Part shown: piece by piece, positions 4,064 through 24,562 of the stretch
Layout: every line of letters begins with the position of its first letter
Numbering within the stretch: position 1 is the first letter of the stretch
NCBI GenBank assembly: GCA_030651035.1
Contig: JAUSCK010000129.1
Coordinates: forward strand, 1-34,535
DNA length: 34,535 nucleotides
Direction of reading: 5' to 3'
Source of the DNA: Elusimicrobiota bacterium
GTDB taxonomy: Bacteria > Elusimicrobiota > Elusimicrobia > Elusimicrobiales > UBA9959
Made by a program: the position numbers and the translations under genes
The notes under the pieces: generated by a model
What the model saw: the letters and a program-made list of their open reading frames with translations, nothing else
The model's database searches: none
What the model was told of the DNA's origin: nothing

Positions 4064-5422
4064 ATGAACGGCAAAATAATTATTTTCAGTATCTTCTCTT
4101 TAATCCCTTTAACAGCCCGGGCCGCCCAGGTCACCCTTGAAGCGGCCGTGGAGAAAGGCCTTAAAGCCGACAATATATTAAAGGAAGAGGCGGCCCGCGT
4201 CAGCGGCGCGAAAGCGGGGTTAAGCCAGGCCCGGCTGGCCAGGCTGGGCGGTTTTAAATTGAAAGGGATGTACACCGACGGTACCGACCCGGTCTACGCA
4301 TTCGCCGCGGCCATGAAGCAGGGTACTTTCAGCATGGCCTCCATGGCCGCGATAAACGATCCGGCCCCCGCGCGCAACTTCACGGCCGGCATAGAGGCCG
4401 GTGTGCCGCTCTTCACCGGATTCGCCGTCACGAACGCGGTTAAAATGGGCGAGCTGGGCACAGAAGCCGCGCAGAGCGGCTATGAGCGGGCCCGCGCCGG
4501 GATAACCTTCAAAATCACCTATCAGTGGCTCACCGTGCTGCTGCGCCGCCGTCTGGCTGAGCTGGCCTCCGACAGCGTAAAGGCCGCCGAAACCGAGCTG
4601 AAGACCGCCCGGATGCTTAAGGATAAGGGCATGGTGCCGGGCTCCGACTATTACGGCGCCGAAGCCATACTTTCCACGCTGCGCGGCTACAGCCTGAGCT
4701 GGGATAAAGCGCTGGAGCTTGAAAAAGAAAAGCTGGCCATAACGCTGGGCATGGACGCGGCCTCCGGCGTTGACGCGGCGGGCGGATTGAATGAAGCGGT
4801 CTACGCTGAAAAGACCAGGAGCGAGCTGGCCGCCGCGCCCCCGGGTGGAAGGCGCGACATAAAAGCGCTGGAGAAAATGGCCGCTGTCTCCAGGATCTCC
4901 GAAGCCATGCAGGAAAATTCCGTGCTGCCGGTCGTCGAGGCTTTCGGCTCCTGGGAAACAAATTCTGAAAGTCTTTCGAATTTTAGATCCAGCCGGCTGC
5001 TCGGCCTGCGCCTTACGGTGCCGCTGGGCGACCCCGCTTATTTCGCGAAAAGAGACGCGGCCAGGGCCGAAGCCTCAATGGCCTCCAGCCGCCTGGACGA
5101 AGCTCGCAAACAGGCTTCGATCGAAGTAGCCGAGGCGCTGAACAACTATAGCGCCGCCAAAGAAAGCCTGCCCGTGGCGAGGGAAACCCTGGAGAAAGCC
5201 AGGCAGTCGCTTGAGCTCTTCCGCCCCCTCTACCGCCAGGGCCGCCAGAGCGTGCTGGAAGTCCTCCGCGCACAGGCCTCCGTATTGCAGGCTGAAGCCG
5301 CCTATTACGAAACCCTGTACAAACTGAATCTCTACCACGCCCGGACCCTGCTGGCATCGGAAACGCTGGATGGCGCGGCGATAAAAGAAATGTCGGAGAA
5401 GCTGGTGAAGACAGCGAATTGA
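4064..5422 (+). CDS. TolC-family outer-membrane efflux protein
   Basis: A 452-residue outer-membrane factor of a tripartite efflux system. A signal peptide (MNGKIIIFSIFSLIPLTARA) is followed by VTLEAAVEKGLKADN, the usual N-terminal start of the mature TolC fold, and by long Ala/Leu/Glu-rich helices in two similar halves. The second half contains RLDEARKQASIEVAEALNNY and LYRQGRQSVLEVLRAQASVLQAEAAYYE. The start ATG has a GGGAGGAAG ribosome site. The RND permease gene begins 16 bases downstream, so the pair is an operon. The periplasmic adaptor gene that normally accompanies such pairs is missing here. Confidence 0.9.
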   Translation: MNGKIIIFSIFSLIPLTARAAQVTLEAAVEKGLKADNILKEEAARVSGAKAGLSQARLARLGGFKLKGMYTDGTDPVYAFAAAMKQGTFSMASMAAINDPAPARNFTAGIEAGVPLFTGFAVTNAVKMGELGTEAAQSGYERARAGITFKITYQWLTVLLRRRLAELASDSVKAAETELKTARMLKDKGMVPGSDYYGAEAILSTLRGYSLSWDKALELEKEKLAITLGMDAASGVDAAGGLNEAVYAEKTRSELAAAPPGGRRDIKALEKMAAVSRISEAMQENSVLPVVEAFGSWETNSESLSNFRSSRLLGLRLTVPLGDPAYFAKRDAARAEASMASSRLDEARKQASIEVAEALNNYSAAKESLPVARETLEKARQSLELFRPLYRQGRQSVLEVLRAQASVLQAEAAYYETLYKLNLYHARTLLASETLDGAAIKEMSEKLVKTAN

Positions 5423-12472: not shown

Positions 12473-12501
12473 AATATGGTTTCCCAACTTATCATCATGA
12501 T

Positions 12502-13070: not shown

Positions 13071-13160
13071 ATCAACTAAGGATTTGTTCATCTACCAATC
13101 GCGGTAGAAGGAGCTCAGGGACCGCTCGTAAGGGCGGTCGCTGCATATTAGGCCATCTTT
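13071..13160 (+). ncRNA. Candidate structured RNA, convergent to the nuclease-like gene
   Basis: Immediately after the promoter the plus strand folds into two stable hairpins inside a weak closing stem. TCTACC/GGTAGA (13091-13096 with 13103-13108) has a 6-base loop, GACCGC/GCGGTC (13120-13125 with 13134-13139) has an 8-base loop, and CTAA (13076-13079) can pair with TTAG (13148-13151). A short T run follows at 13157-13160. The 3' part overlaps the last codons of the minus-strand gene ending at 13148, so it would be antisense to that message. There is no sizeable ORF. Pairing and promoter are seen; the RNA gene is inferred. Confidence 0.5.
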
Positions 13161-13636
13161 TCGTATCTCCGTTGCAGATCGACCTTTTTCCAAGGCTGGA
13201 CATAAAACGCCGTAATCCATAAAAAAACATGCTTTCTTCTTTGCAGAATTAAAGCATAATCAAAATTTTCAAGCCAAACATAGGTCCGCATTCCCTTGTC
13301 GGCCGGCCCTTCCTGATATTGCCAAACCTTTATTTCAGGAACCGGGTAATTTCGCAACATCGGTTCCGCCCACGGCAGACGCCTGGCCCTGTCAAAATCA
13401 ATCAACCGGTCTCCGGTTTTTTTATCTTCCTTGGTTACGACATGCCAGAACCCTTCCTCTTTTCCCTGTCCATCCGGTTTAATAACGTTGTTGAAAATCA
13501 CCTTAATTCCTTGATGATACACTTGCGACTTTTTAAAGTCCTTCTCAAAAACATCGTATAGGCGTGTTAATATTTCGTCCCACGCGCCATTGAGAGCAAG
13601 AATAGGCGGTAAAAACGTGGGCAGATTTCCCGTCAT
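13148..13636 (-). CDS. Unrecognised protein, possible BECR/RelE-like nuclease toxin
   Basis: A 162-residue protein whose start ATG overlaps the stop of the DUF3800 gene by four bases (ATGA), so the two are translated together. The body has GFWHVVTKED, RLIDFDRARRLPWAEPML and a C-terminal stretch YVWLENFDYALILQRRKHVF then LWITAFYV and RRYEKMA. That last pattern (conserved aromatic, then LIL.RRK...L.TA......RRYE) recalls barnase/EndoU/RelE-like (BECR) nucleases found on phage and mobile elements, but I cannot prove the assignment. Base composition is AT-rich compared with the dcw genes. It could equally be a structural partner of DUF3800. Confidence 0.78.
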   Translation of the reverse strand: MTGNLPTFLPPILALNGAWDEILTRLYDVFEKDFKKSQVYHQGIKVIFNNVIKPDGQGKEEGFWHVVTKEDKKTGDRLIDFDRARRLPWAEPMLRNYPVPEIKVWQYQEGPADKGMRTYVWLENFDYALILQRRKHVFLWITAFYVQPWKKVDLQRRYEKMA

Positions 13637-14349
13637 TGTATCTCCGACGGGGTGAAAATAAAAATATTAAATCTTTCAGTCCAGGGAGGGCTGCTTTTCC
13701 CCAGATTTTGACCGGCTTTATTGGAAATCAAATCCACAATGGCGCATTTCACAGCATTAGATTTTAAGCTTCGGTTATAATAAGCTATTGCCCCAATGAA
13801 TAAATCAGACAGCTGAAGCAATTCCGATTCATGAGAATGAATATTCTGGATGTTTTTTATCATCTCATCAGAGGCATTCGCGACACTATTACACAGCACG
13901 GTTTTCAACTGAGTAAGCTTCTGGGCGCTTCTGGTGTCTTTTATATCCAAATAAATATTATACCGCCTTTCAGGTTTTATAATGTTCTTCAGCATGAAGT
14001 AATACATTTTGTAATAAAAGGAATCATGGCTCCCCTGATTAAAAAAATCATGATTTAATTTTGATTTATCATCAACCACAATACATCTGAAATTTAAAAA
14101 AGGCGTGGCAAAAAAATAGTTCACAAGTTCTATAAAATAATCTCGCCTTGAGTTGGAAACCCTAACCCATTTAAGTTCGCCATTGGCCTTGTTCCTGTTT
14201 TTTATATCCTTGATCTTCTCGGATACAGCGCTAACCTGGCTTTTAGGGCACCAAATACCCCCAATGACCATAACAGGCTGCTTGTCATGCTCAAGATGAC
14301 AGCTTTCATCGCAATAAACATTGAATTCTTCCGGATTAATTTCAGTCAT
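13633..14349 (-). CDS. DUF3800 domain protein (second copy)
   Basis: A 238-residue protein starting MTEINPEEFNVYCDESCHLE. The N-terminal VYCDESCHLEHD...MVIGGIW and the late SHESELLQLSDLFIGAIAYY are the two conserved acidic blocks of DUF3800, thought to form an RNase H-like fold. It is a distant relative of the other DUF3800 protein in the window rather than a recent duplicate. It overlaps the downstream nuclease-like gene by four bases. Codons are markedly AT-rich. DUF3800 genes are common in defence and mobile regions, with no settled biochemical role. Confidence 0.85.
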   Translation of the reverse strand: MTEINPEEFNVYCDESCHLEHDKQPVMVIGGIWCPKSQVSAVSEKIKDIKNRNKANGELKWVRVSNSRRDYFIELVNYFFATPFLNFRCIVVDDKSKLNHDFFNQGSHDSFYYKMYYFMLKNIIKPERRYNIYLDIKDTRSAQKLTQLKTVLCNSVANASDEMIKNIQNIHSHESELLQLSDLFIGAIAYYNRSLKSNAVKCAIVDLISNKAGQNLGKSSPPWTERFNIFIFTPSEIQ

Positions 14350-14378
14350 AATTTTATAGCTCTCCGAATAAAAACACC

Positions 14379-14531
14379 CTATTCCCTGACTTTAAACCGG
14401 TCGAACTCCCTTACATTTAAGCGTTTAAGCAACGTCCCGCCGCGGCATAGCGAAAACCTCCCTGTTTCCGTCTTCTCGTTATAATGGCGGCGTATCTTAC
14501 TCCCTTCAAAAACAGCCGGAGATTTGTCCAT
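14379..14531 (-). pseudogene. BRO-N/antirepressor-type gene fragment
   Basis: An ORF of 50 codons starts MDKSPAVFEGSKIRRHYNEK with a proper ribosome site (GGAGG, 5 bases from the ATG). The start matches the N-terminus of BRO-N-like prophage antirepressor proteins (V.FE...IRR..DE.TE.W.FS). Similarity stops after TETGRFS. The frame then reads through the GGGACG repeat, giving GGTLLKRLNV, and stops at 14379. It is a truncated remnant that may still be translated. Confidence 0.6.
14410..14438 (-). repeat. GGGACG-type repeat, copy A
   Basis: Identical over 29 bases to the copy at 12502-12530. In the frame of the BRO-N fragment it encodes GTLLKRLNV. It lies about 60 bases before the DUF3800 start at 14349. 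Confidence 0.85.
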
Positions 14532-14578
14532 ATTGCCTCCATTTACAACCATTTTGGTGAAATTAACAAAATAGTATT

Positions 14579-14698
14579 TTAAGCCGGTTTAATATCTTTC
14601 GTATTAAGCGGCAATTCGGATTTATACTCAATGGTTTTGCTTTCGGAAACGCCATTGACGATTAAATTTTGCAGATCTTCCGGTTTAATGTCTTCCAT
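14579..14698 (-). pseudogene. AlbA_2 (Schlafen-type) gene fragment, copy A
   Basis: Encodes MEDIKPEDLQNLIVNGVSES then KTIEYKSELPLN, the recognisable beginning of AlbA_2/Schlafen-type putative DNA-binding and ATP-binding proteins, which normally continue for several hundred residues. It stops at 14579. Relative to copy B there is one extra base in the T run after the original ATG (14714), so the first start is out of frame and only an internal ATG at 14698 reads on. Bases 14601-14695 match 15733-15827 at 94 of 95 positions. Confidence 0.75.
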
Positions 14699-14728
14699 TT
14701 TTTTTGTTAATCATATCTCAAAAGTGAT

Positions 14729-14752
14729 AAGGCTCCTGCTGCCTTTTTGCCC
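14729..14752. repeat. Hairpin repeat, copy A
   Basis: On the minus strand GGGCAAAAAGGCAGCAGGAG then CCTT; stem AAGGC/GCCTT (14729-14733 with 14741-14745). It differs from the hairpin at 12663-12689 by only a few bases, in the opposite orientation. It lies between the AlbA_2 scrap and the promoter at 14754. Confidence 0.65.
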
Positions 14753-14753
14753 A

Positions 14754-14782
14754 TTGCGGGCACCGGTTTTATCTGCTATAAT
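14754..14782 (+). promoter_or_regulatory. Promoter for the structured element at 14.79 kb
   Basis: TTGCGG (14754-14759), exactly 17 bases, TATAAT (14777-14782), with the extended -10 TGC before it. The predicted start is about 14789, the first base of the closing stem. Confidence 0.68.
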
Positions 14783-14788
14783 TAATAC

Positions 14789-14852
14789 GCGACCAAGACA
14801 GCCGCAAGTGTGCGACTGGCGGGGTGAAAACCTCCTTGGCCGCTTTTCTTTT
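14789..14852 (+). ncRNA. Candidate structured RNA with its own promoter and terminator, convergent to DUF3800
   Basis: The predicted transcript starts with GCGACCAAG (14789-14797), which pairs with CTTGGCCGC (14835-14843) apart from one A-C mismatch. Inside are a CGCA/TGCG hairpin (14803-14806 with 14811-14814, loop AGTG) and GGGG/CCTC (14821-14824 with 14831-14834, loop TGAAAA), giving a three-way junction. TTTTCTTTT follows directly (14844-14852), as at an intrinsic terminator. Promoter, fold and end together look like a complete RNA gene of about 60 bases. The U-tract reaches the stop codon of the convergent DUF3800 gene at 14851. RNA motifs associated with DUF3800 genes have been reported from comparative genomics; I cannot say whether this is one. 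Confidence 0.62.
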
Positions 14853-15582
14853 ACGGCCATTTCCGTATACCATTTCCACTCAAACGTCCGGCAAAACGCC
14901 AAAGCCTTTTCTTGATAATCTGGTACTCCGGCAGATTGCCCGGCCCGGTAATTTCACGGTAAAAAACATTGGCGCACACATCAGCCATTTGTATCAGATT
15001 AGATGTGTGTGATTTGGCGAAAAACGTTCCCTCAACAATATGGCAGGGGTATAAATTTTCCGATCTGGCCTGTAGGAATGACTGGAAATGACGGAGATTA
15101 TCATCACTGGTTTCCTTTACCGGATCCAAAACGACAATTCCAAACCTGTCTCTAGTCTGGTGTTGTAAAAAAGCGTTATAAGACTCAAGCAACAATTCAA
15201 GCGAGCGGACTTCCGGCTTCACAAGCCTTTCTTTTCGCGACGTGTCCACCTTCCCTTTGTTAATAGCTACGCCGATAAGCGTAATATCCGGATTTCCTCC
15301 GACAAGCTGAAGCAAATCCAGCAGGAATTGTTTTCTTCTGTTGCCGTCCCAGCCGGAAAACGCCCGTCTCCCGCGCCGGACATCGGAGGCTTTAATTTCC
15401 TGATCCCATAATAAGCCGCGTGTTCTTTTAAATTCCAGAAGTTTTTCATTCCAGGCGCGCCACTTCCAGCCGTGAATTATGAGCCCGACTCTGGCAAACG
15501 CTTTGCTTCCTCCCCATTTCCCCCAATTACCGTCTGGAGGATATCCCGGGTCTCCCGATTCATCAACAAACATCATGTGCAT
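14851..15582 (-). CDS. DUF3800 domain protein (first copy)
   Basis: A 243-residue protein beginning MHMMFVDESGDPGYPPDGNW, the archetypal DUF3800 start (FVDESGD). A middle FGIVVLDP strand and the C-terminal block SHTSNLIQMADVCANVFYRE complete the family pattern. The predicted fold is RNase H-like, with acidic residues in the first and last blocks. The ATG at 15582 has a GGAGGAAC ribosome site. It stands alone, downstream of AlbA_2 debris and repeats, and converges on the candidate RNA gene ending at 14852. No function is established; a nuclease role in defence or mobile-element maintenance is plausible. Confidence 0.9.
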   Translation of the reverse strand: MHMMFVDESGDPGYPPDGNWGKWGGSKAFARVGLIIHGWKWRAWNEKLLEFKRTRGLLWDQEIKASDVRRGRRAFSGWDGNRRKQFLLDLLQLVGGNPDITLIGVAINKGKVDTSRKERLVKPEVRSLELLLESYNAFLQHQTRDRFGIVVLDPVKETSDDNLRHFQSFLQARSENLYPCHIVEGTFFAKSHTSNLIQMADVCANVFYREITGPGNLPEYQIIKKRLWRFAGRLSGNGIRKWP

Positions 15583-15718: not shown

Positions 15719-15861
15719 TTTTTGCGTCCCCGGTATTAAGCGGCAATTCGGATTTATACTCAATGGTTTTGCTTTCGGAAACGCCATTGACGATTAAATT
15801 TTGCAGATCTTCCGGCTTAATGTCTTCAAGTTTTTTGTTAATCATAGCTCAAAATAGGGAT

Positions 15862-15923: not shown

Positions 15924-18900
15924 TCATTTAAAAGCTCCGGGCCAGCCGCCGTGTTGGGTTATTACTTTGTCTATCTCGGCCATGATTCTAATTGTTTCGG
16001 ATATGGCTACAACTATTTTTTGATAGTGAGCGATGTCGTCTTTGGATAATTTTCGGCCTTTACGGTCTTTAAGCCACTTCTCGCAGACCTGGTATCCGCC
16101 TATGTGGAAGTTCCAGACGGGCTCCGGCACACCGCCGAAGCTTTCAGTCTGGGCCTTGTCAATCCAGACGGTTTCGTCGGAATATGTGACTTTCTCGACC
16201 TCGGGATTCTTGCCGCCGGTCCACTTGGTGATGTGCTTATCCAGCTTTGGCGATTCCATCAGGTGCAGGGCAACCAGTTCGCCGCCGAGTTTCGCCAGGG
16301 CACGGAACAAGTCTAGGCTAGAGGTCAACGGTATACGCGGAAAATCGGTTTTCAGAAAGATTGCGTAGCGGCTCCGGTAGAAGGGAGAATAAAGAATCGC
16401 GTAAACGAAGTTAAAGATGTCTAAGTCACTAATATTTTTGTTCTGCTCCCCTGGTTTCGAAGTGGGTGTTCCGAGCCCAAGGCGGTTTGCTATTTGAGCC
16501 ACACACTCGGTCCGGAGATTGGTTGTCCGTTCACCTTCCCTCCGAGCATAAAGCTGGAGTTGACCAGAGGAATCGGCAAGACGCAGAGGGAAAAGGTAAG
16601 AACCGCGGGTTCTATCTGCAATTTTGGATTCGACGATCCACTTCGTCACGAAGGCCGAGGTAAACTCATGTTCGTCGAAGACTTTCGAGACAAGAAGCCC
16701 AACATTCGGAGAAAACATGTGCGTCATTAGGTCCCGCCGATCACGGTCAATCAAGTAAGAAGCGTAGCAGATGTATCGAAGATCGAACGGCCGATATAGC
16801 GTTTCCTTGACCAATTCTTCCACACTTGACTCCTTGCGCAAGTGTACGTGTGCCGACACTATCGACCAGTCGCAATTGCCCTTCACTCCGAACTTCTGCG
16901 ATAGGTGGGCTTCATCGCCTCGATTGTTCCGGAAAGCCTCCATACGTGCGATGAGTTCATTTCGGTTAAGGTCGATCACAAACTCATCACGGTGGGTTTG
17001 ATAGCCAACATTGCTCGTTTCAAACAGATGATTCAAGGGTAGGAACGTTCTGTACTCCGTCTCAATATCTTCTGGGGCGGCGGTAAAACTGAATAGGCTC
17101 GGACGAGGCTGAGATTTCTTCCAAGGAGTGGTATAAGGAGTGTTCATGGTAAGCCACAAGTATTTTTCCTCGCGAGAGCCAATCAATTCGTGTCCATACA
17201 CCTCAACAACTGGAGACGCCGCATCAGATAGGCGGAGGAACAAGCTGATTCCAACGCCCTGCTGGATATCAAAGACATTCCGATCATCTTGCATGGCAGG
17301 GTCTCGATTCATGTCACCTCTGAGGTCAACAAAACGGACCCATTGGAAGTCATGGATGAGCGATCGACGCATCGCACGAAAAAGGCGAGCTGTTGCGTAG
17401 GAGTGGTTTGTGATCATCCCGATCTGCCCTACGCCTGCCCTACATAGCGTTAAATGTGCAAAGCAGAGAAACTTCACATAATCATCGTTCAGGGGTTTAA
17501 GATTCCGTTCATCTTCGAGATGCTCTTTGTAAATCCCGAGATGTGTATCCATGGGTGAATTCTTGTTGGCGGAGTTCACAGAGTAGGGTGGATTTCCAAT
17601 AACAACTGTAAACCGCTGGTCTCGTTTAATCTTATTTACAGCCTGCGCCTCATGGCCCAAAGCCTCAAAAAGGCCGGCTGCACTATCCGATTCTAAATCT
17701 AATGCGGGTTCTAAGGAATTTGTCAGATACACCCTGGCCCTTTCGTCACTGTTAAATTTATACCCAGTCTCAAAAAGTTTAAGGCCTATTTTAAGGTGTG
17801 CTATAGCGTAAGGGGCCATTAACAACTCATACCCATAAAGACGTGGTAAAAGATGTTTGGGAACATACTCATTCCAAAGGATTTCAATTTTCGGCTGTGA
17901 ATGGCCTTGGGCATCCCATTTCTCGATCATCGTTTTATAGATGAGATCAATCACTTCCACTAAAAATGTTCCGGTTCCGGTGGCCGGGTCCAAAATTTGG
18001 ACAAAAGCCTGTTCCGGATTTGTGCCTTCCGGAATTTTTAAATCCGGATTTCGCTTTGCCATTTCCCCCCAGGTTGTTATGTCCGCCAGTCCATCCGGGA
18101 GTTTAAATTCTGTGCGCAAGAGCTCATCTACCGAACGCACAATATAAGACACAACCGGGCGCGGTGTATAAAAAACCCCGCGCTGCATTCGTTTTTTTGC
18201 GTCGTACTCTTTTAGAAACAGCTCGTAAAAATGTATTACAGGATCTTCCTCTGGATTTTTATCTCCGAAATCCCTGAGTACATCATCCATCTTTGCGTCA
18301 TCCAACAATTCAACAACTTCACTTACCCCAAGTTCGTCAAAATCAATGTTCGGCCCGCCCTTCTTAGCGCGCCGGCCGCCGACCTGGAGAAAAGTCTCCA
18401 TCAGTTCTTTTAGGAATGGATTTGTGACCGGCATCTGGGTTGCCAATGCATCTGCGGTGGCACCGTCGGGATTTGAAATCCGCGCGGAAAGGAGCCCGTA
18501 AGCGATAGTCTGGGCGTACATGTCGGCAAAACCAGCCGCATCCAGGTCGTGAACAAGGGCTTCTTTAAAAGCTTTCATCAACTTGGTAAGCGGGCCGGAT
18601 TCGGTTTCAATTGCTAATGCGGATGTGATGCGGTCACGGATGGCGCGGGCCAAATGTGCGAGCTGTATGGAAAGATTTTCCGAGGTTTTAATTACCTCGC
18701 GGTGGCGCAGCACAAATGCGGAACGCCAGGTTTTACGCCATTCTTCGGCATTTGAGGAGTCCTTAGGCCAACCCAGGACATGCTTTAGTTGTTCTGAAAC
18801 ATGGTCCAAGTGCAGGGGAGTATCAAGGTTATCCCAGCCAAGGACTTTAAGCGTCGGCAGATCTTTTTTTACTGAATCCTGGGAGAAATGGGCAAAGGTT

Positions 18901-19292
18901 ATATGGCGTTCGCTTCCTTCGCCGTAATTGGAAATAAAAAGCAGATCGTCGGTTTTCCAGGCGGCCCGTTCCGCGCTATTTGCAGAAGCGCGGTTTTTTA
19001 ATGCGACCCGGCTTAATATACGCCTGAGCGCAACCACCGGAAGCCGCCCGGGAGCAAACTTGACAAAAAATATACCCCAGGGCTGATTTGTGGATAAAGG
19101 CCTTAAGCGTTTGATCTCTTCAATTTTAACCGCATTTTTAAAATCAATCCCAAGTTCCTCGGGAGTATAGTCAAAAGTGATTTCCTCGAAAGACTCGCCT
19201 TCAATCGGCCAACCCATTTCATCGCGAAGATATTTAACTAACGACGGGAATGTCCGGATTTCTTTAAGCTCTTCACGATGGTTTACAGGCAT
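15924..19292 (-). CDS. Type ISP-like DNA adenine methyltransferase with target-recognition C-terminus
   Basis: A protein of about 1122 residues (ATG at 19292; a GTG at 19322 would overlap the helicase gene). In order: a poorly recognised N-terminus; the gamma-class N6-adenine methylase core with RGVFYTPRPVVSYIVRSVDE, motif I ILDPATGTGTFLVEV (about 433-447) and motif IV VVIGNPPYS (about 563-571); then a long C-terminus. That C-terminus, with AILYSPFYRSRYAIFLKTDF and WNFHIGGYQVCEKWLKDRKG, is typical of type ISP restriction-modification specificity domains. Intact ISP enzymes also carry nuclease and helicase domains in one chain; here those functions sit in the upstream gene. It probably protects host DNA by methylation and specifies targets. 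Confidence 0.9.
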   Translation of the reverse strand: MPVNHREELKEIRTFPSLVKYLRDEMGWPIEGESFEEITFDYTPEELGIDFKNAVKIEEIKRLRPLSTNQPWGIFFVKFAPGRLPVVALRRILSRVALKNRASANSAERAAWKTDDLLFISNYGEGSERHITFAHFSQDSVKKDLPTLKVLGWDNLDTPLHLDHVSEQLKHVLGWPKDSSNAEEWRKTWRSAFVLRHREVIKTSENLSIQLAHLARAIRDRITSALAIETESGPLTKLMKAFKEALVHDLDAAGFADMYAQTIAYGLLSARISNPDGATADALATQMPVTNPFLKELMETFLQVGGRRAKKGGPNIDFDELGVSEVVELLDDAKMDDVLRDFGDKNPEEDPVIHFYELFLKEYDAKKRMQRGVFYTPRPVVSYIVRSVDELLRTEFKLPDGLADITTWGEMAKRNPDLKIPEGTNPEQAFVQILDPATGTGTFLVEVIDLIYKTMIEKWDAQGHSQPKIEILWNEYVPKHLLPRLYGYELLMAPYAIAHLKIGLKLFETGYKFNSDERARVYLTNSLEPALDLESDSAAGLFEALGHEAQAVNKIKRDQRFTVVIGNPPYSVNSANKNSPMDTHLGIYKEHLEDERNLKPLNDDYVKFLCFAHLTLCRAGVGQIGMITNHSYATARLFRAMRRSLIHDFQWVRFVDLRGDMNRDPAMQDDRNVFDIQQGVGISLFLRLSDAASPVVEVYGHELIGSREEKYLWLTMNTPYTTPWKKSQPRPSLFSFTAAPEDIETEYRTFLPLNHLFETSNVGYQTHRDEFVIDLNRNELIARMEAFRNNRGDEAHLSQKFGVKGNCDWSIVSAHVHLRKESSVEELVKETLYRPFDLRYICYASYLIDRDRRDLMTHMFSPNVGLLVSKVFDEHEFTSAFVTKWIVESKIADRTRGSYLFPLRLADSSGQLQLYARREGERTTNLRTECVAQIANRLGLGTPTSKPGEQNKNISDLDIFNFVYAILYSPFYRSRYAIFLKTDFPRIPLTSSLDLFRALAKLGGELVALHLMESPKLDKHITKWTGGKNPEVEKVTYSDETVWIDKAQTESFGGVPEPVWNFHIGGYQVCEKWLKDRKGRKLSKDDIAHYQKIVVAISETIRIMAEIDKVITQHGGWPGAFK

Positions 19293-19300
19293 AGTTGGTT

Positions 19301-22300
19301 TTAGTTTATTTCCATCCAGCACTTCAACACGGGCTTTACGCCCATAGGCGCGTCAACCCGTTTCAGGTATGTATTGGTGATATGCTTCAAAACCTTGGCT
19401 TTAATTTCTTTCAGGCTTTCATGTGCCATTTTACAGACTCTGGGGGTTTCGGGTTTGGATTTTATTACCTCAATTATTTCCCCGGGGTCTTCAAGTATGG
19501 CATTGCGGGCGGAGTCGTAGTAATACCAGCGGGCAATTCCGGCTTCTTCCGTAAATTCGGCAAGCTCCTTATCCAGGGCCGGCAAAGCGTAACAGAAAAA
19601 CACGCCTTTCCTCGCATGTTCCTTCCCGCTAAAAATCCCCCCAGGCAACCCTTTTGCCATTTTAGCGAGATCAGGGTTTTGGTGCGTCATCGCCTGATAT
19701 TCCAGGTGCATGTCTTCTAAAAGAGTTTTTGAGCCCTCATATGCCTGATTAAATTCCCGCAACGCTTCATAATCATCGTCAGGGGTCAGCAGCTTTTTGC
19801 CTTCTATCCCTAGTGTTTTTGAAATCAACAGGGTTTTTTGGGAAACTTTGGCATATAACGAAAGTATTTCATTTAATTCTGCCGGCGGCAGGAAATTCCA
19901 GAAACGTATTTTTCCCCTGGAACTTTTGAGTTCCGGGTGGTCGTTGAGAATTCTTTCTTCCGTCGCAAGATTCATCCTGCGGTCCACGCGGCCGATACGC
20001 TGCATAATCCTGACAGGGTTCCAGTGGATGTCATAGTTGATCATCCGCGTGGCATCCTGGAGGTTTATGCCTTCGGAAAGAACATCCGTTGAAATTAAAA
20101 CTTGAGTCTCTTTTAATCCTTTTTCTTTCAATTCACCGGACGATTTCCCGTTATAATACGGGGCGAAGCGCTCTAAAACCTCGGACCTCGCGTTTTTTGT
20201 AGAGCTGTCAACCTGGTTTACATCTTTAATTCCGGCGTCTTTTAATTCAGCCGCTACATAGCGGGCGGTGTCGGCAAATTCCGTAAAAATCAGCACTTTC
20301 TGATTTCCGCAATCCTTGGATTTTAATACTTGGACAAGTTTTTTTAGTTTATCGTCATGCTTGGGGTTGAACTTTTTCACCTCTTCAAGAAATTTAGCGA
20401 TCTGGTCCAGGTCAAGATATGTTTCGTCTATTATCTCGTCAACCTTGTATTCATCCCTGTTCAATTGTTCAATAGACTCCAAAAGTTCTTCTGAGACAAT
20501 ATCCTCATCCTCCTCCTCGGAATCCCCCCATAACTCACGCTGGCGTTCCATTGCGTAGCCAAGTATCTCCCTGTTTATCTCCTTCCACCGGGAGAGCCGC
20601 TTTTTATCCGCATCCGTTTCGCTGTGCTTCTCCAGGAAGGCAAGCAGCTTGCGCAGTAAACGGTCGCAGGAAAGCTCGAACGCCCGGATGGAACTCTCAA
20701 AACGCTTAAGGAATTGGATACGGATAAGGCCGACAACCTGTTTCTGGCGGCCTTCCTCAAGAGGGTCTATTGTCTTATCACCGCCTTTGTAATAAGCCAG
20801 GGGATAGTAAATGGGCAGACTGAATAATGGTTTATCTTTTGAAAAAGCCCGCTCAAACATTTCCAGCAGATGCCCGTAGGTTTTATGGATAGAATAGTCC
20901 GCAACCTGGGGAGCTTCCCTGACCGGAAACACAGAGGCCTTGCCGGATTCGCGTTTCTGGCTTTCACGGGCATAAGCGCGGCTGCGCTGAACAACCAAAT
21001 GCCGGAAGATGTCGTCCATTGAAAGCGTTTTCTGAGCTTCAATAATATTTTCGCTTAGAGCCGCGGTCTCGGACCCGAGGCGCTGGCGCAGTTGCCTTTC
21101 CATGTTGTTAAAATGGGCGGTAAGGTTATTTACTCCAAAAGTGCGCCCAAAGTAGGACTCATTGCGCCTGCTGAAAAGTTCGATCATATGCCTGACGTCG
21201 CTAAGGCGGTTGTTTAGCGGGGTGGCAGTCAACATGAAAAGGGTTTTAGGCTTTTTCGAGTTGTCCAACAAGTCGTACAGGCGGTAATAGCGGGACTTCT
21301 CCTCCCAATTAGCGGATTCGGTTTGAAGGCCCGTATTCCTGAAATGGTGGGCCTCGTCTATAATAACAACATCCGCCTGCTCGGCAATTCTTTTAAAACG
21401 TTCGGGGAATTCCCCCTCGCGGCCTAAATCAGTGTGGTTGAAAACGGCCAGGTTGCTGAAATCAGCGCTGCCGATGTGCGGCAGCCATTCGCGCAGATGC
21501 GGCTCCCAAACCGCCTCTCTTGCTGATTTCGGAGCAAAAAGCACCACCCGCTTGCCCTCTTGCAGGATCAAGCGCTCTATCAGCATCAGGCCGACAAAAG
21601 TCTTTCCGAGGCCGACACCGTCGCAGAGGAACGCCCCGCCATGCTGGCGGGCTATTTTCATTAATGCCCAATAGCCTTCTTTTTGGTAGCGGTCAAGCTT
21701 CGGGAACATTCTGGATTTTGATTCTTCCCATTCCGCCGCGGTCATCTCATGGCTGCGGAAAAATTCCTGAAGGGCTTTTACGTAAATTTCAAAAGGCGTA
21801 TAGTCGCGGACATGGCGCTCAATGATTTTGATTATGTCCTCGTTGACGGGTATGGCGTCTTTCCAATGATATTCAAACCATTCCTGGAGCTGTGCCACTT
21901 CTCTGGAGCTCTGGACCTGGATGTTTAGTTCTATATTTTCAGTAAGGCCGGGGTAGGTAAAATTGCTGGAGCCGACAAGGGCCTGGGAGCCGATTACATC
22001 AAGTTTGGCATGTGTGATATAGGCTTTTGCGTGAAATTTGTCTTTGTTATAAATCCTGCATTCAATTTTCCCGCTTTTCAGCGCGTCAACTATTGCGGGG
22101 ACGCCGGTGAGAAAAGGATTTCCTTCTTTGTCGTTCTCAATGCTTTTATCGAGCTTTTCCGCCGCCCTGGCGCGCAGCGCGTCAAGAATCGCCTGTTTTG
22201 TTCTCTGGGTGGTTTCATCGCCCATTAAAAGGCGTATTTTACCCAGTTGCTGCCATTTACCATCAAGGGCTAAAAGGGCGCCTATTTCAAAATAGCCGGT

Positions 22301-22417
22301 GGCTATGTCAAAACTTTTGGCGATTCCGGTCCACTCCTGAAGATACCGGAGGCAGCTCCAGCCGGATACGCTGTTGTCTACGATAAAAAGTTCGTGGCCT
22401 GATTTTTCCTGGGGCAT
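19301..22417 (-). CDS. PLD-nuclease/SNF2-type helicase
   Basis: A protein of about 1038 residues (ATG at 22417 preferred; a TTG at 22447 is possible). The N-terminus is a phospholipase D-like domain with FHAKAYITHAKLDVIGSQAL then VGSSNFTYPGLTEN (about 128-160), a single HxK...GSSNF half-site that could act as a dimeric nuclease. The SF2/SNF2 helicase follows: DGVGLGKTFVGLM (about 266), VVIIDEAHHFRN, MLTATPLNNRLSD, and in the second lobe STDVLSEGINLQDATRMINY then IMQRIGRVDRR. It is the first gene of an operon with the methylase and probably translocates on DNA and cuts it. DISARM-type helicases are a looser alternative. Confidence 0.9.
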   Translation of the reverse strand: MPQEKSGHELFIVDNSVSGWSCLRYLQEWTGIAKSFDIATGYFEIGALLALDGKWQQLGKIRLLMGDETTQRTKQAILDALRARAAEKLDKSIENDKEGNPFLTGVPAIVDALKSGKIECRIYNKDKFHAKAYITHAKLDVIGSQALVGSSNFTYPGLTENIELNIQVQSSREVAQLQEWFEYHWKDAIPVNEDIIKIIERHVRDYTPFEIYVKALQEFFRSHEMTAAEWEESKSRMFPKLDRYQKEGYWALMKIARQHGGAFLCDGVGLGKTFVGLMLIERLILQEGKRVVLFAPKSAREAVWEPHLREWLPHIGSADFSNLAVFNHTDLGREGEFPERFKRIAEQADVVIIDEAHHFRNTGLQTESANWEEKSRYYRLYDLLDNSKKPKTLFMLTATPLNNRLSDVRHMIELFSRRNESYFGRTFGVNNLTAHFNNMERQLRQRLGSETAALSENIIEAQKTLSMDDIFRHLVVQRSRAYARESQKRESGKASVFPVREAPQVADYSIHKTYGHLLEMFERAFSKDKPLFSLPIYYPLAYYKGGDKTIDPLEEGRQKQVVGLIRIQFLKRFESSIRAFELSCDRLLRKLLAFLEKHSETDADKKRLSRWKEINREILGYAMERQRELWGDSEEEDEDIVSEELLESIEQLNRDEYKVDEIIDETYLDLDQIAKFLEEVKKFNPKHDDKLKKLVQVLKSKDCGNQKVLIFTEFADTARYVAAELKDAGIKDVNQVDSSTKNARSEVLERFAPYYNGKSSGELKEKGLKETQVLISTDVLSEGINLQDATRMINYDIHWNPVRIMQRIGRVDRRMNLATEERILNDHPELKSSRGKIRFWNFLPPAELNEILSLYAKVSQKTLLISKTLGIEGKKLLTPDDDYEALREFNQAYEGSKTLLEDMHLEYQAMTHQNPDLAKMAKGLPGGIFSGKEHARKGVFFCYALPALDKELAEFTEEAGIARWYYYDSARNAILEDPGEIIEVIKSKPETPRVCKMAHESLKEIKAKVLKHITNTYLKRVDAPMGVKPVLKCWMEIN

Positions 22418-22533
22418 AAAATGATTCCGCACAATCTCTAAACCCAATCATTATTCTATATCTTAACCAGTGTACTATCAATGTGAAAATACGACGCTGA
22501 TGGTTCACAAATTGGCTTTTACCCAAATAGTTA

Positions 22534-22594
22534 TACAGCCGCATTTTACCAATGACCGGCTTGCTTATATTTTACAAGCGAAAGTGCGGCTGTA
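22534..22594 (-). ncRNA. Candidate structured leader RNA before the helicase gene
   Basis: On the minus strand TACAGCCGCA (22594-22585) pairs perfectly over 10 bases with TGCGGCTGTA (22543-22534). Inside are a GCTTG/CAAGC hairpin and a possible short CC/GG hairpin, again a junction-like fold. The extended -10 TCTGCTATACT lies directly upstream, placing +1 at about 22593, the base of the closing stem. No T run follows, so RNA may continue into the helicase gene starting at 22417. It shares the 9-mer ACAGCCGCA with the element at 14.79 kb. Confidence 0.42.
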
Positions 22595-22599
22595 GAAAT

Positions 22600-22605
22600 A
22601 GTATA
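22600..22605 (-). promoter_or_regulatory. Extended -10 for the helicase-methylase operon
   Basis: TATACT on the minus strand with TG one base upstream and the same TCTGC prefix as the promoters at 13059 and 14777. The -35 region is poor, as extended -10 promoters can be. It lies in the 274-base gap between the DUF4276 stop and the helicase start. Confidence 0.45.
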
Positions 22606-22691
22606 GCAGACCAGCGCGACAGCGTGGTGTCGCGTTGGAAAAGCAGATTTTCATCAAAATATGACTTTAAAGGGCGGTAAATCCCTGTATA

Positions 22692-23303
22692 TCAAGAAAC
22701 CCGCAGTCCCCTGAGCATTGTCTCTATGTCTCTGTAGCATTTATTAAATGATTCGGAATTTGTTCGTGCGGCAGTCATATTAAACAATCCCGTGAATGCA
22801 GGTTGATCTGTTGTTTCGGAATATCTTTGACCTTTCGGCATTCGGGCGCTAAGCCATTCTTTTGCGCCGCGGATATTCTCCGGATTTAAAGGTTGCTCCA
22901 ATGTTGTCGGGAGTCCGCGTTGTCCGCGAAGCGACTCGGCAGCGGCCAAAAACCATGCTTCATATTCCATCTTTGCCAATACAACAAATATAGGGATGTC
23001 CCTGCGGGTTGCCTGGGCGCGCGTCCGCAGCTCAGGCCCGTTTCTTGCAGGACAACAATCTTTGAAATCACCATCAAGAAGTATAAAAATGCCGCCTTTT
23101 CCATTAAGCTTATAGGATGCCAGGGCCACTGCGCGTTCAATCTCGCCGGCCTTTAACAGGCGCGAAGCCGGGATACGTATAGGATAAAGTATTCGGGGGA
23201 CAAAATCAGGAAAGATATCCAACGCAATCCTGCGGATTAAAATGGGTGTTGCGCTACATTCCCCATACCCTTCAACTATCGGGATAATTTTTGCTTCGCT
23301 CAT
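22692..23303 (-). CDS. DUF4276 (TOPRIM-like) protein
   Basis: A 203-residue protein starting MSEAKIIPIVEGYGECSATP. DUF4276 features are clear: the glutamate block VEGYGE, the DxD strand IFILLDGDFKDC (about residues 72-83), LAKMEYEAWFLAAAESLRG and GAKEWLSARMPKGQRYSETT then DQPAF. The VEG and DxD layout is that of a TOPRIM-like nuclease. The ATG at 23303 lies inside the end of the ATPase gene (overlap 32 bases), so the pair is coupled. A TTG 15 bases upstream is possible. By analogy with ATPase/TOPRIM immune pairs such as PARIS, this would be the effector. Confidence 0.9.
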   Translation of the reverse strand: MSEAKIIPIVEGYGECSATPILIRRIALDIFPDFVPRILYPIRIPASRLLKAGEIERAVALASYKLNGKGGIFILLDGDFKDCCPARNGPELRTRAQATRRDIPIFVVLAKMEYEAWFLAAAESLRGQRGLPTTLEQPLNPENIRGAKEWLSARMPKGQRYSETTDQPAFTGLFNMTAARTNSESFNKCYRDIETMLRGLRVS

Positions 23304-24510
23304 ATGTGTAATTTGCAAAAAGTTCCGGTTGAGTTGAAGCCGCGTATTCCGCGCAATCAGGTTCTAGCTGACTCATCCTAAGAAGTTCGCCCGGCGTGTA
23401 TAGGCGTTCTTTTATCGCTTTTTTTCCGGCAAAATCCAAAGGACCTATTTTTGTCTCTCCATTTTCACTAATAACCGGCCAAATACATGATTCGGAAATA
23501 TCCTTATCATCCAGCAAATCAGGGCTATGACTGGTAACTATAATTTGGGTTTTCTGGGAAGCAGACAGAAGCGCGTCCCGTAAAATTCCGGCTGCGCCCG
23601 GATGCAATGCCACCTCCGGTTCTTCAATGCCGACAAATGGAACTTTTTTTTGGCTGTTATTGGATGATTGGAATAAAGCTGTCAATACGCCAAGGGCTCT
23701 AAGCGTGCCGTCGGACATGTTTTCAGCCATAAACCGCCATGGGTCATTACTATTCCCGACATTTTGGCGAAACTCCAACGTCTCCTTTTTTCCGATATGT
23801 TTCACATCTACACTTTGAATACCAGGCACCACACATGAAAGGAAATTAATTACCCTGTCATGCGTTTCTTTGTCTTCCCGCTTCATCAGCTCCAGGACAC
23901 TGGCAAGATTGCCGCCATCCCGCCGCAGGACTTCCCCTGCATCCGATGGTTGTAATTCCCTGATTTCATCAGGGTTGAGGCTGTAAAATCCCATATGTGA
24001 TAACGCATTATACAAAGGTTTAAATTTAGGGACACCGGCAGCCACAACTAAAAGAAGCCGGTCGGTGTTTACCGGCAGATCAGTGCCAAGGTTATGCTCT
24101 TTAAGTGCCCCATCTTCAACTTTATAAAAACTGTCCGTGTCTAAGTTCTTACCGAAAATTCTGCATTCCTCGCGCTGCACCGCAAACCCTCCCTTCTCCA
24201 TGGACTTTACGCGAAACGCGTACATCCCCTCAGTCCCATCCGCCAGTTGCCAATCCAATCTGATTCCAAAATGAGTCGGATGCCCGGCGGACCTTCGCCT
24301 TACTTCATTTATCCCGCCGCGGTCCCGTAAAGCATGCTCCAGTGAAGTGTTTAATGACTCCGTTACAAGGCGCAGGGCATCAAGAAAGTTGCTTTTTCCC
24401 GCACCATTTTGACCGACAAGAAACGTTAATGGCCCGGGTTTAACATTGCATTCCTTTATGCTTTTGTAATTATTGAGGGCTATTCGTTTTAGAAAGACTG
24501 GGGAAGCCAT
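23272..24510 (-). CDS. AAA15/AAA_21-family ATPase (SMC/ABC-like)
   Basis: A 412-residue ABC-type ATPase: Walker A FLVGQNGAGKSNFLDALRL (about 31-49), signature MSDGTLRALGVLTALF, Walker B FVGIEEPEVALHPGAAG and the H-loop IIVTSHSPDLLDD. This arrangement is the stand-alone AAA_21 class used in OLD-like and PARIS-type defence systems. The ATG at 24510 has GGAG 8 bases upstream and is preferred over a GTG at 24522. The downstream DUF4276 gene overlaps its 3' end. It is predicted to sense a phage trigger and hold or release the partner. Codons are AT-rich compared with murE next door. Confidence 0.92.
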   Translation of the reverse strand: MASPVFLKRIALNNYKSIKECNVKPGPLTFLVGQNGAGKSNFLDALRLVTESLNTSLEHALRDRGGINEVRRRSAGHPTHFGIRLDWQLADGTEGMYAFRVKSMEKGGFAVQREECRIFGKNLDTDSFYKVEDGALKEHNLGTDLPVNTDRLLLVVAAGVPKFKPLYNALSHMGFYSLNPDEIRELQPSDAGEVLRRDGGNLASVLELMKREDKETHDRVINFLSCVVPGIQSVDVKHIGKKETLEFRQNVGNSNDPWRFMAENMSDGTLRALGVLTALFQSSNNSQKKVPFVGIEEPEVALHPGAAGILRDALLSASQKTQIIVTSHSPDLLDDKDISESCIWPVISENGETKIGPLDFAGKKAIKERLYTPGELLRMSQLEPDCAEYAASTQPELFANYTYERSKNYPDS

Positions 24511-24562
24511 AATTATCTCCACATGGACAATGGGAACAGGGATAGTTTACTATTTTTAAGGA

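Follow-up and report, generated by a model that had tools for sequence, protein, structure and literature searches.

RNAs associated with DUF3800 genes have been catalogued as motifs, and to our knowledge none of them has a shown function. In type III toxin–antitoxin systems, ToxI RNA keeps the nuclease ToxN inactive, and antitoxins of this type are usually tandem repeats that are cut out by the toxin. Cas12, IscB and TnpB provide precedents for a nuclease gene that adjoins its own RNA. In the AbiF system, RCd22 RNA binds AbiF directly and neutralises it both in cis and in trans (PMC12373285). The DUF3800 domain adopts an RNase H fold and also accompanies Cas12a2 and type VI-F CRISPR systems, where a role in RNA processing or interference has been suggested (PMC10910872; PMC12669027). 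One of the associated RNAs, DUF3800-VI, is filed by Rfam as cis-regulatory (RF02915).

The window, the whole stretch of 34,535 nucleotides that was analysed, contains an RNA gene on its plus strand at 14789-14852, which faces a DUF3800 gene. Its parts are listed in Table 1. The motif TGCTATAAT constitutes the extended -10, with 6 nt between its end and the RNA start. At the other end, the T-run shares 2 nt with the stop codon of the DUF3800 CDS, and the two genes converge. RNAfold returns the three-way junction for this sequence at a fold z of only -1.7 to -2.0, while the complementary strand of the element folds better (z -3.6). Furthermore, the promoter fails a strict sigma-70 consensus scan, its -35 hexamer agreeing at 3/6 positions. 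Taken alone, the window sequence is therefore weak evidence for an RNA gene. That such a gene exists is far beyond chance because the same element is found at five other DUF3800 genes, and we consider the gene and its plus-strand orientation confirmed.

Table 1. Features of the RNA gene and the adjoining DUF3800 gene in the window
Feature	Positions	Strand	Details
Promoter	14754-14782	+	TTGCGG 14754-14759, 17-nt spacer, TATAAT 14777-14782; read directly
TG of extended -10	14774-14775	+	1 nt 5' of the -10; read directly
Structured RNA, three-way junction, 55 nt	14789-14843	+	RNAfold, conservation, covariation
P1	14789-14797/14835-14843	+	GCGACCAAG pairs with CTTGGCCGC, one A.C mismatch
Joint A	14798	+	Single nucleotide between P1 and P2
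P2	14799-14806/14811-14818	+	
P2-P3 joint	14819-14820	+	GC in the window copy; GU in the other copies
P3	14821-14825/14830-14834	+	Loop GAAA
T-run TTTTCTTTT, presumed RNA end	14844-14852	+	Read directly
DUF3800 CDS, 243 aa	14851-15582	-	PF12686, E 1.7e-11; convergent with the RNA gene

A protein search yielded three close homologues of the window pair (L008, L009 and L010), from two MAGs titled as Verrucomicrobiota and one unclassified MAG, with 61-68% identity to the window DUF3800. In all three, the element lies directly 3' of the DUF3800 stop codon and converges with the gene, as in the window. Two further copies lie upstream of their DUF3800 genes in the sense orientation. One of them (L019) is located 21 nt from the ATG of a gene whose product is 32% identical to the window protein. 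The other (L055), on a phage contig, came from scanning viral contigs for a pattern; its DUF3800 and that of L019 share 82% identity. The sample of this RNA family thus comprises six copies in two distinct groups, with a gene of one DUF3800 subfamily strictly adjoining the RNA in 6/6: four convergent downstream (window, L008, L009, L010) and two sense upstream (L019, L055).

Among the four downstream copies, the RNA is 76-98% identical and the CDS 60-72%, while the flanking DNA is at about 40%, which equals chance, and cannot be aligned. The core sequence of the RNA is nearly fixed across phyla. Each locus holds a single RNA unit, each genome a single copy, and tandem repeats were not seen. 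The pair is rare, with very few further copies in the approximately 1,400 genomes searched and none in any other sampled genome of the window's phylum. This scattered occurrence, together with close relatives in other groups and a copy on a phage contig, fits horizontal transfer. On the phage contig (L055:8235-11602), the pair is placed between the gene for the major head protein and further phage genes, as would be the case for a cargo gene.

Not every DUF3800 gene is accompanied by such an RNA. No RNA of the window type was found at the DUF3800 genes of L020 and L022 (30-33% identical), and a search for known RNAs at the PDC-M04A-type DUF3800 genes (window 13633-14349; L036-L038) gave none. 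Several other matches were discarded. A match on a Haloarcula plasmid falls inside ORFs and is devoid of the P1 arm, and those of model R1 in L016 and at 4307-4350 of the window are weak and have no P2; we attribute all three to chance. The RNA is absent, as judged by the model, from viral contigs L023-L026, which had matched a loose pattern.

The signals for transcription lie on one strand. A -10-like hexamer is present 4-7 nt 5' of the RNA on the same strand in five of five copies measured, and TTGACA is found upstream of the RNA in L019 and L055. At the 3' side, at least 7 T occur within 8 nt in 4/5 copies measured, against a background of 0.8%; the fifth has a 10-bp terminator instead, and L055, the sixth copy, carries T8. 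In most copies 0-2 nt separate P1 from the T-run, and in L019 and L055 the T8 is followed by the ATG of the DUF3800 gene. In the copies surveyed, no T-runs or terminators were found on the opposite strand of the element. The P3 loop reads GAAA or UAAC in the four downstream copies on the plus strand only. At variable pairs, the four close copies remain intact in 24/24 cells on the plus strand versus 18/24 on the minus strand; over all six copies the counts are 56/66 and 54/66, which do not separate the strands. A minus-strand RNA forming part of the DUF3800 message had first been favoured by folding energy and by invariant G-U pairs. This reading was dropped on the basis of L019, the survey of T-runs and promoters, the GAAA loop and the register with DUF3800-VI described below.

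The fold of the family can be written as P1-A-P2-GU-P3-P1'. In the six-copy alignment 92% of the cells pair, a value biased in favour of the fold, to which the alignment had been fitted. Changes on both sides are present in five pairs, four of them in P3, and in this model-fitted alignment the signal is destroyed by sliding the partners. A MAFFT alignment was left out, as L019 is misaligned there. Throughout the downstream group, pairs 4-52 and 14-27 are A.C mismatches; in L019 and L055 they are A-U and U-A. P1 and P2 are backed by conservation and not by covariation, as both hardly vary. The preliminary description had proposed the promoter with its extended -10, the three-way junction with its closing stem, and a T-run straight after this stem at the stop of a convergent DUF3800 gene. 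All of these are upheld, the first by the -10-like hexamer in all copies and the fold by RNAfold and the six-copy pairing. The compensatory changes that it anticipated in an alignment of 3' flanks are found as well, chiefly in P3.

The same description had proposed a covariance-model search against known DUF3800-associated RNA families. No relative emerges from Rfam: the window element matches no family at the gathering threshold, and a search at E<=10 in 451 bases returned only unrelated chance matches, without DUF3800-VI. The architecture and register of the element, on the other hand, do match DUF3800-VI. Rfam places this RNA upstream of DUF3800 genes on proteobacterial plasmids, above the gathering score in L027-L029 and below it in L030 and L034. 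Its alignment consists of P1, a single A, P2, GU, and a 5-bp P3 with a 4-nt loop, followed by P1' without a gap. The new RNA is likewise a three-way junction (both are about 52-55 nt) with the joints A, GU and none, has a 5-bp P3 with a 4-nt loop that runs straight into P1', and is found with a -10-like element just upstream and a DUF3800 gene adjoining. In contrast, its P1 and P2 are longer, little helix sequence is shared, and the Rfam model does not recognise it. Whereas DUF3800-VI is upstream and sense, the new RNA is convergent and downstream in 4/6 copies, and its T-run usually stands directly 3' of P1' in place of a separate terminator hairpin.

When the DUF3800-VI layout was searched for independently, six of these plasmid genes proved to have it upstream, and two E. 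coli plasmids have a looser version. All eight plasmid loci of this type show the order -10-like element, RNA, intrinsic terminator, gene. Model R2, built on the new RNA, was applied to 42 kb surrounding plasmid DUF3800 genes; its best match (L033, E 0.06) and a further one (L034, E 4.4) keep the register and the expected strand. Their E-values are marginal, and we read these matches, with corresponding caution, as suggesting common descent with DUF3800-VI. The new RNA is probably a divergent, unlisted RNA of the DUF3800-VI type. Two small E. coli plasmids (L017:1303-1355, L032:1391-1443) carry a DUF3800-VI-like RNA missed by Rfam before a strong terminator and a DUF3800 gene, which occupies 1413-2105 in L017. 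On a Leptospira plasmid (L031:1270-1500), a hairpin-rich region upstream of a DUF3800 gene is matched by no model and perhaps represents another class of RNA.

The window DUF3800 scores 45.4 bits against PF12686, above the gathering cut-off of 21. The best PDB matches of its predicted structure, a weak model with a pLDDT of 59, are to RNase HII (E 0.07). Residues D7, E8, D153 and D201 are invariant across six diverse DUF3800 proteins. The protein is probably a defence nuclease. The gene of the window pair has no match among PADLOC systems.

The locus is situated within a defence island identified by PADLOC at 13148-14349 and 15924-24522, whose members include the PADLOC candidates PDC-M04AB and HEC-01AB, a type IIG restriction enzyme and a PLD-SNF2 helicase. 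ORF translations, read by eye, place the island in a division and cell wall cluster, with a murF-like gene on one side and a murE-like gene on the other. A shared gene order is observed in two unrelated genomes (L010:3001-4780 and window 13633-15582), in which a DUF3800 gene, the RNA on the opposite strand and a PDC-M04A-type DUF3800 gene follow one another in that order; this may reflect either chance clustering or a functional link. A 104-bp repeat (97% identical) flanks the DUF3800–RNA pair at 14601-14704 and 15733-15836, and by eye resembles truncated 5' gene ends. In addition, a 38-bp repeat has three copies, at 12494, 14402 and 15656. These two repeats may mark how the cassette moved.

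We propose that the gene at 14789-14852 is transcribed into an RNA of about 60 nt, which would fold into a compact three-way junction and be the cognate partner of the neighbouring gene's DUF3800 protein. The RNA would bind the RNase H-like protein in trans and restrain it until the cell is infected or the locus is lost; we infer both the binding and the toxicity. Where the RNA lies upstream, transcription that continues past its end would also meter DUF3800 expression. What the two arrangements share is the RNA and its proximity to the DUF3800 gene, which makes a trans-acting partner the simplest reading. A nuclease restrained by its RNA is favoured by the six copies, each at a DUF3800 gene of its own, by an RNA more conserved than the gene, by the compensatory changes in P3, by the layout of the plasmid loci and by the setting in a defence island and on a phage contig. 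The single RNA unit, the convergent loci without an attenuation layout, the rarity of the pair, a sample of only six copies in two groups and the lack of a PADLOC match for the window DUF3800 count against it. On balance, an RNA that binds and inhibits DUF3800 in trans would be the likeliest function, a proposal whose chances we judge to be about evenly balanced.

Ranked second, though unlikely, is that the RNA acts as an activating cofactor or fixed scaffold, DUF3800 being a ribonucleoprotein nuclease that needs it. Adjacency, free position and high RNA conservation would fit equally well, and the association of DUF3800 with Cas12a2 and type VI-F CRISPR, with its suggested role in RNA processing or interference, points the same way (PMC10910872; PMC12669027). 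However, the promoter–RNA–terminator–gene order of the plasmid loci should give much RNA and little message, an excess of RNA over protein as for an inhibitor. Moreover AbiF, the nearest studied analogue, is inhibited by its own RNA (PMC12373285).

A cis-acting leader or riboswitch for DUF3800 expression is impossible for four of the six copies, that of the window among them, as they follow the gene on the opposite strand. Such a role is therefore improbable for the family and refuted as the sole function of the convergent copies. It draws on L019, L055 and all plasmid DUF3800-VI-type loci, where the RNA is upstream with its end or a terminator before the ATG, and attenuation may be an added role of these upstream copies. 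Because the RNA has its own promoter and end whichever side of the gene it is on, both leader and antisense action are ruled out for the family. This supports the preliminary description's view of an independently transcribed RNA, as a -10-like element and an end accompany every copy in both positions.

There is very little prospect that the RNA is a guide, akin to OMEGA RNA or crRNA, directing DUF3800 through a variable segment. The RNase H fold of DUF3800 (PMC10910872, PMC12669027) and the Cas12, IscB and TnpB precedents would be in keeping with one. However, a promoter-like element 4-7 nt before P1 and, in most copies, a T-run 0-2 nt past it leave no variable stretch of guide length, and the internal sequence is nearly invariant between phyla.

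We give similarly little credence to a DNA element, an imperfect palindrome such as an attC site, a REP/IS200-like hairpin or a protein-binding site, able to work in either orientation. Most pairs are indeed possible on both strands (56/66 versus 54/66), and orientation relative to the gene flips between the groups. Against this, promoter-like and T-run signals mark one strand in every copy, the GAAA/UAAC loop is confined to that strand, the element is in register with the DUF3800-VI sense strand, and it is single-copy per genome; no attC core motif was seen in it by eye. Least probable is an antisense RNA to the 3' end of the DUF3800 message: the RNA is complementary to the 3' untranslated region in four copies but, being sense and upstream in L019 and L055, cannot act so there, and the structured RNA does not overlap the coding region and would need neither conserved loops nor compensatory changes for such a task.

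That the RNA lies behind the gene, on the other strand, at four loci and precedes it at two shows that the RNA itself is kept, and not its position in a message. More tentatively, DUF3800 proteins and three-way-junction RNAs could together constitute a widespread, unrecognised RNA-controlled toxin or defence system with the RNA as a freestanding trans-acting antitoxin, a broader claim that we place somewhat on the doubtful side. If true, it would explain the function of DUF3800-associated RNAs at once. The question becomes a simple test of whether RNA supplied from elsewhere binds and restrains the protein, for which the related RNA–protein pairs on small E. coli plasmids offer a ready laboratory system.

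An RNA-restrained DUF3800 can be compared with three known systems. The RNase H fold of DUF3800 differs from the fold of ToxN. The RNA–terminator–nuclease gene layout of ToxIN is matched by the upstream group (L019, L055) but not by the convergent window locus, and no tandem RNA repeats are seen at DUF3800 loci. The DUF3800 proteins of CRISPR V-A2 and VI-F loci belong to the same Pfam domain and have the RNase H fold, but are CRISPR-linked and partly fused to TPR (PMC10910872, PMC12669027); no CRISPR-linked neighbour was seen for the window DUF3800. Like the window pair, AbiF/RCd22 (abiF motif, RF03085; PMC12373285) combines a defence gene with an adjacent structured RNA that emerged from comparative genomics. 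RCd22 is a different RNA with two motif copies, and its binding and neutralisation are demonstrated, whereas for the window pair we infer them. It has its own promoter and terminator (PMC12373285), as the new RNA has a promoter-like element and an end. Finally, the promoter–RNA–terminator–gene order of the plasmid DUF3800-VI-type loci is the layout of both type III toxin–antitoxin systems and AbiF/RCd22 (PMC12373285).
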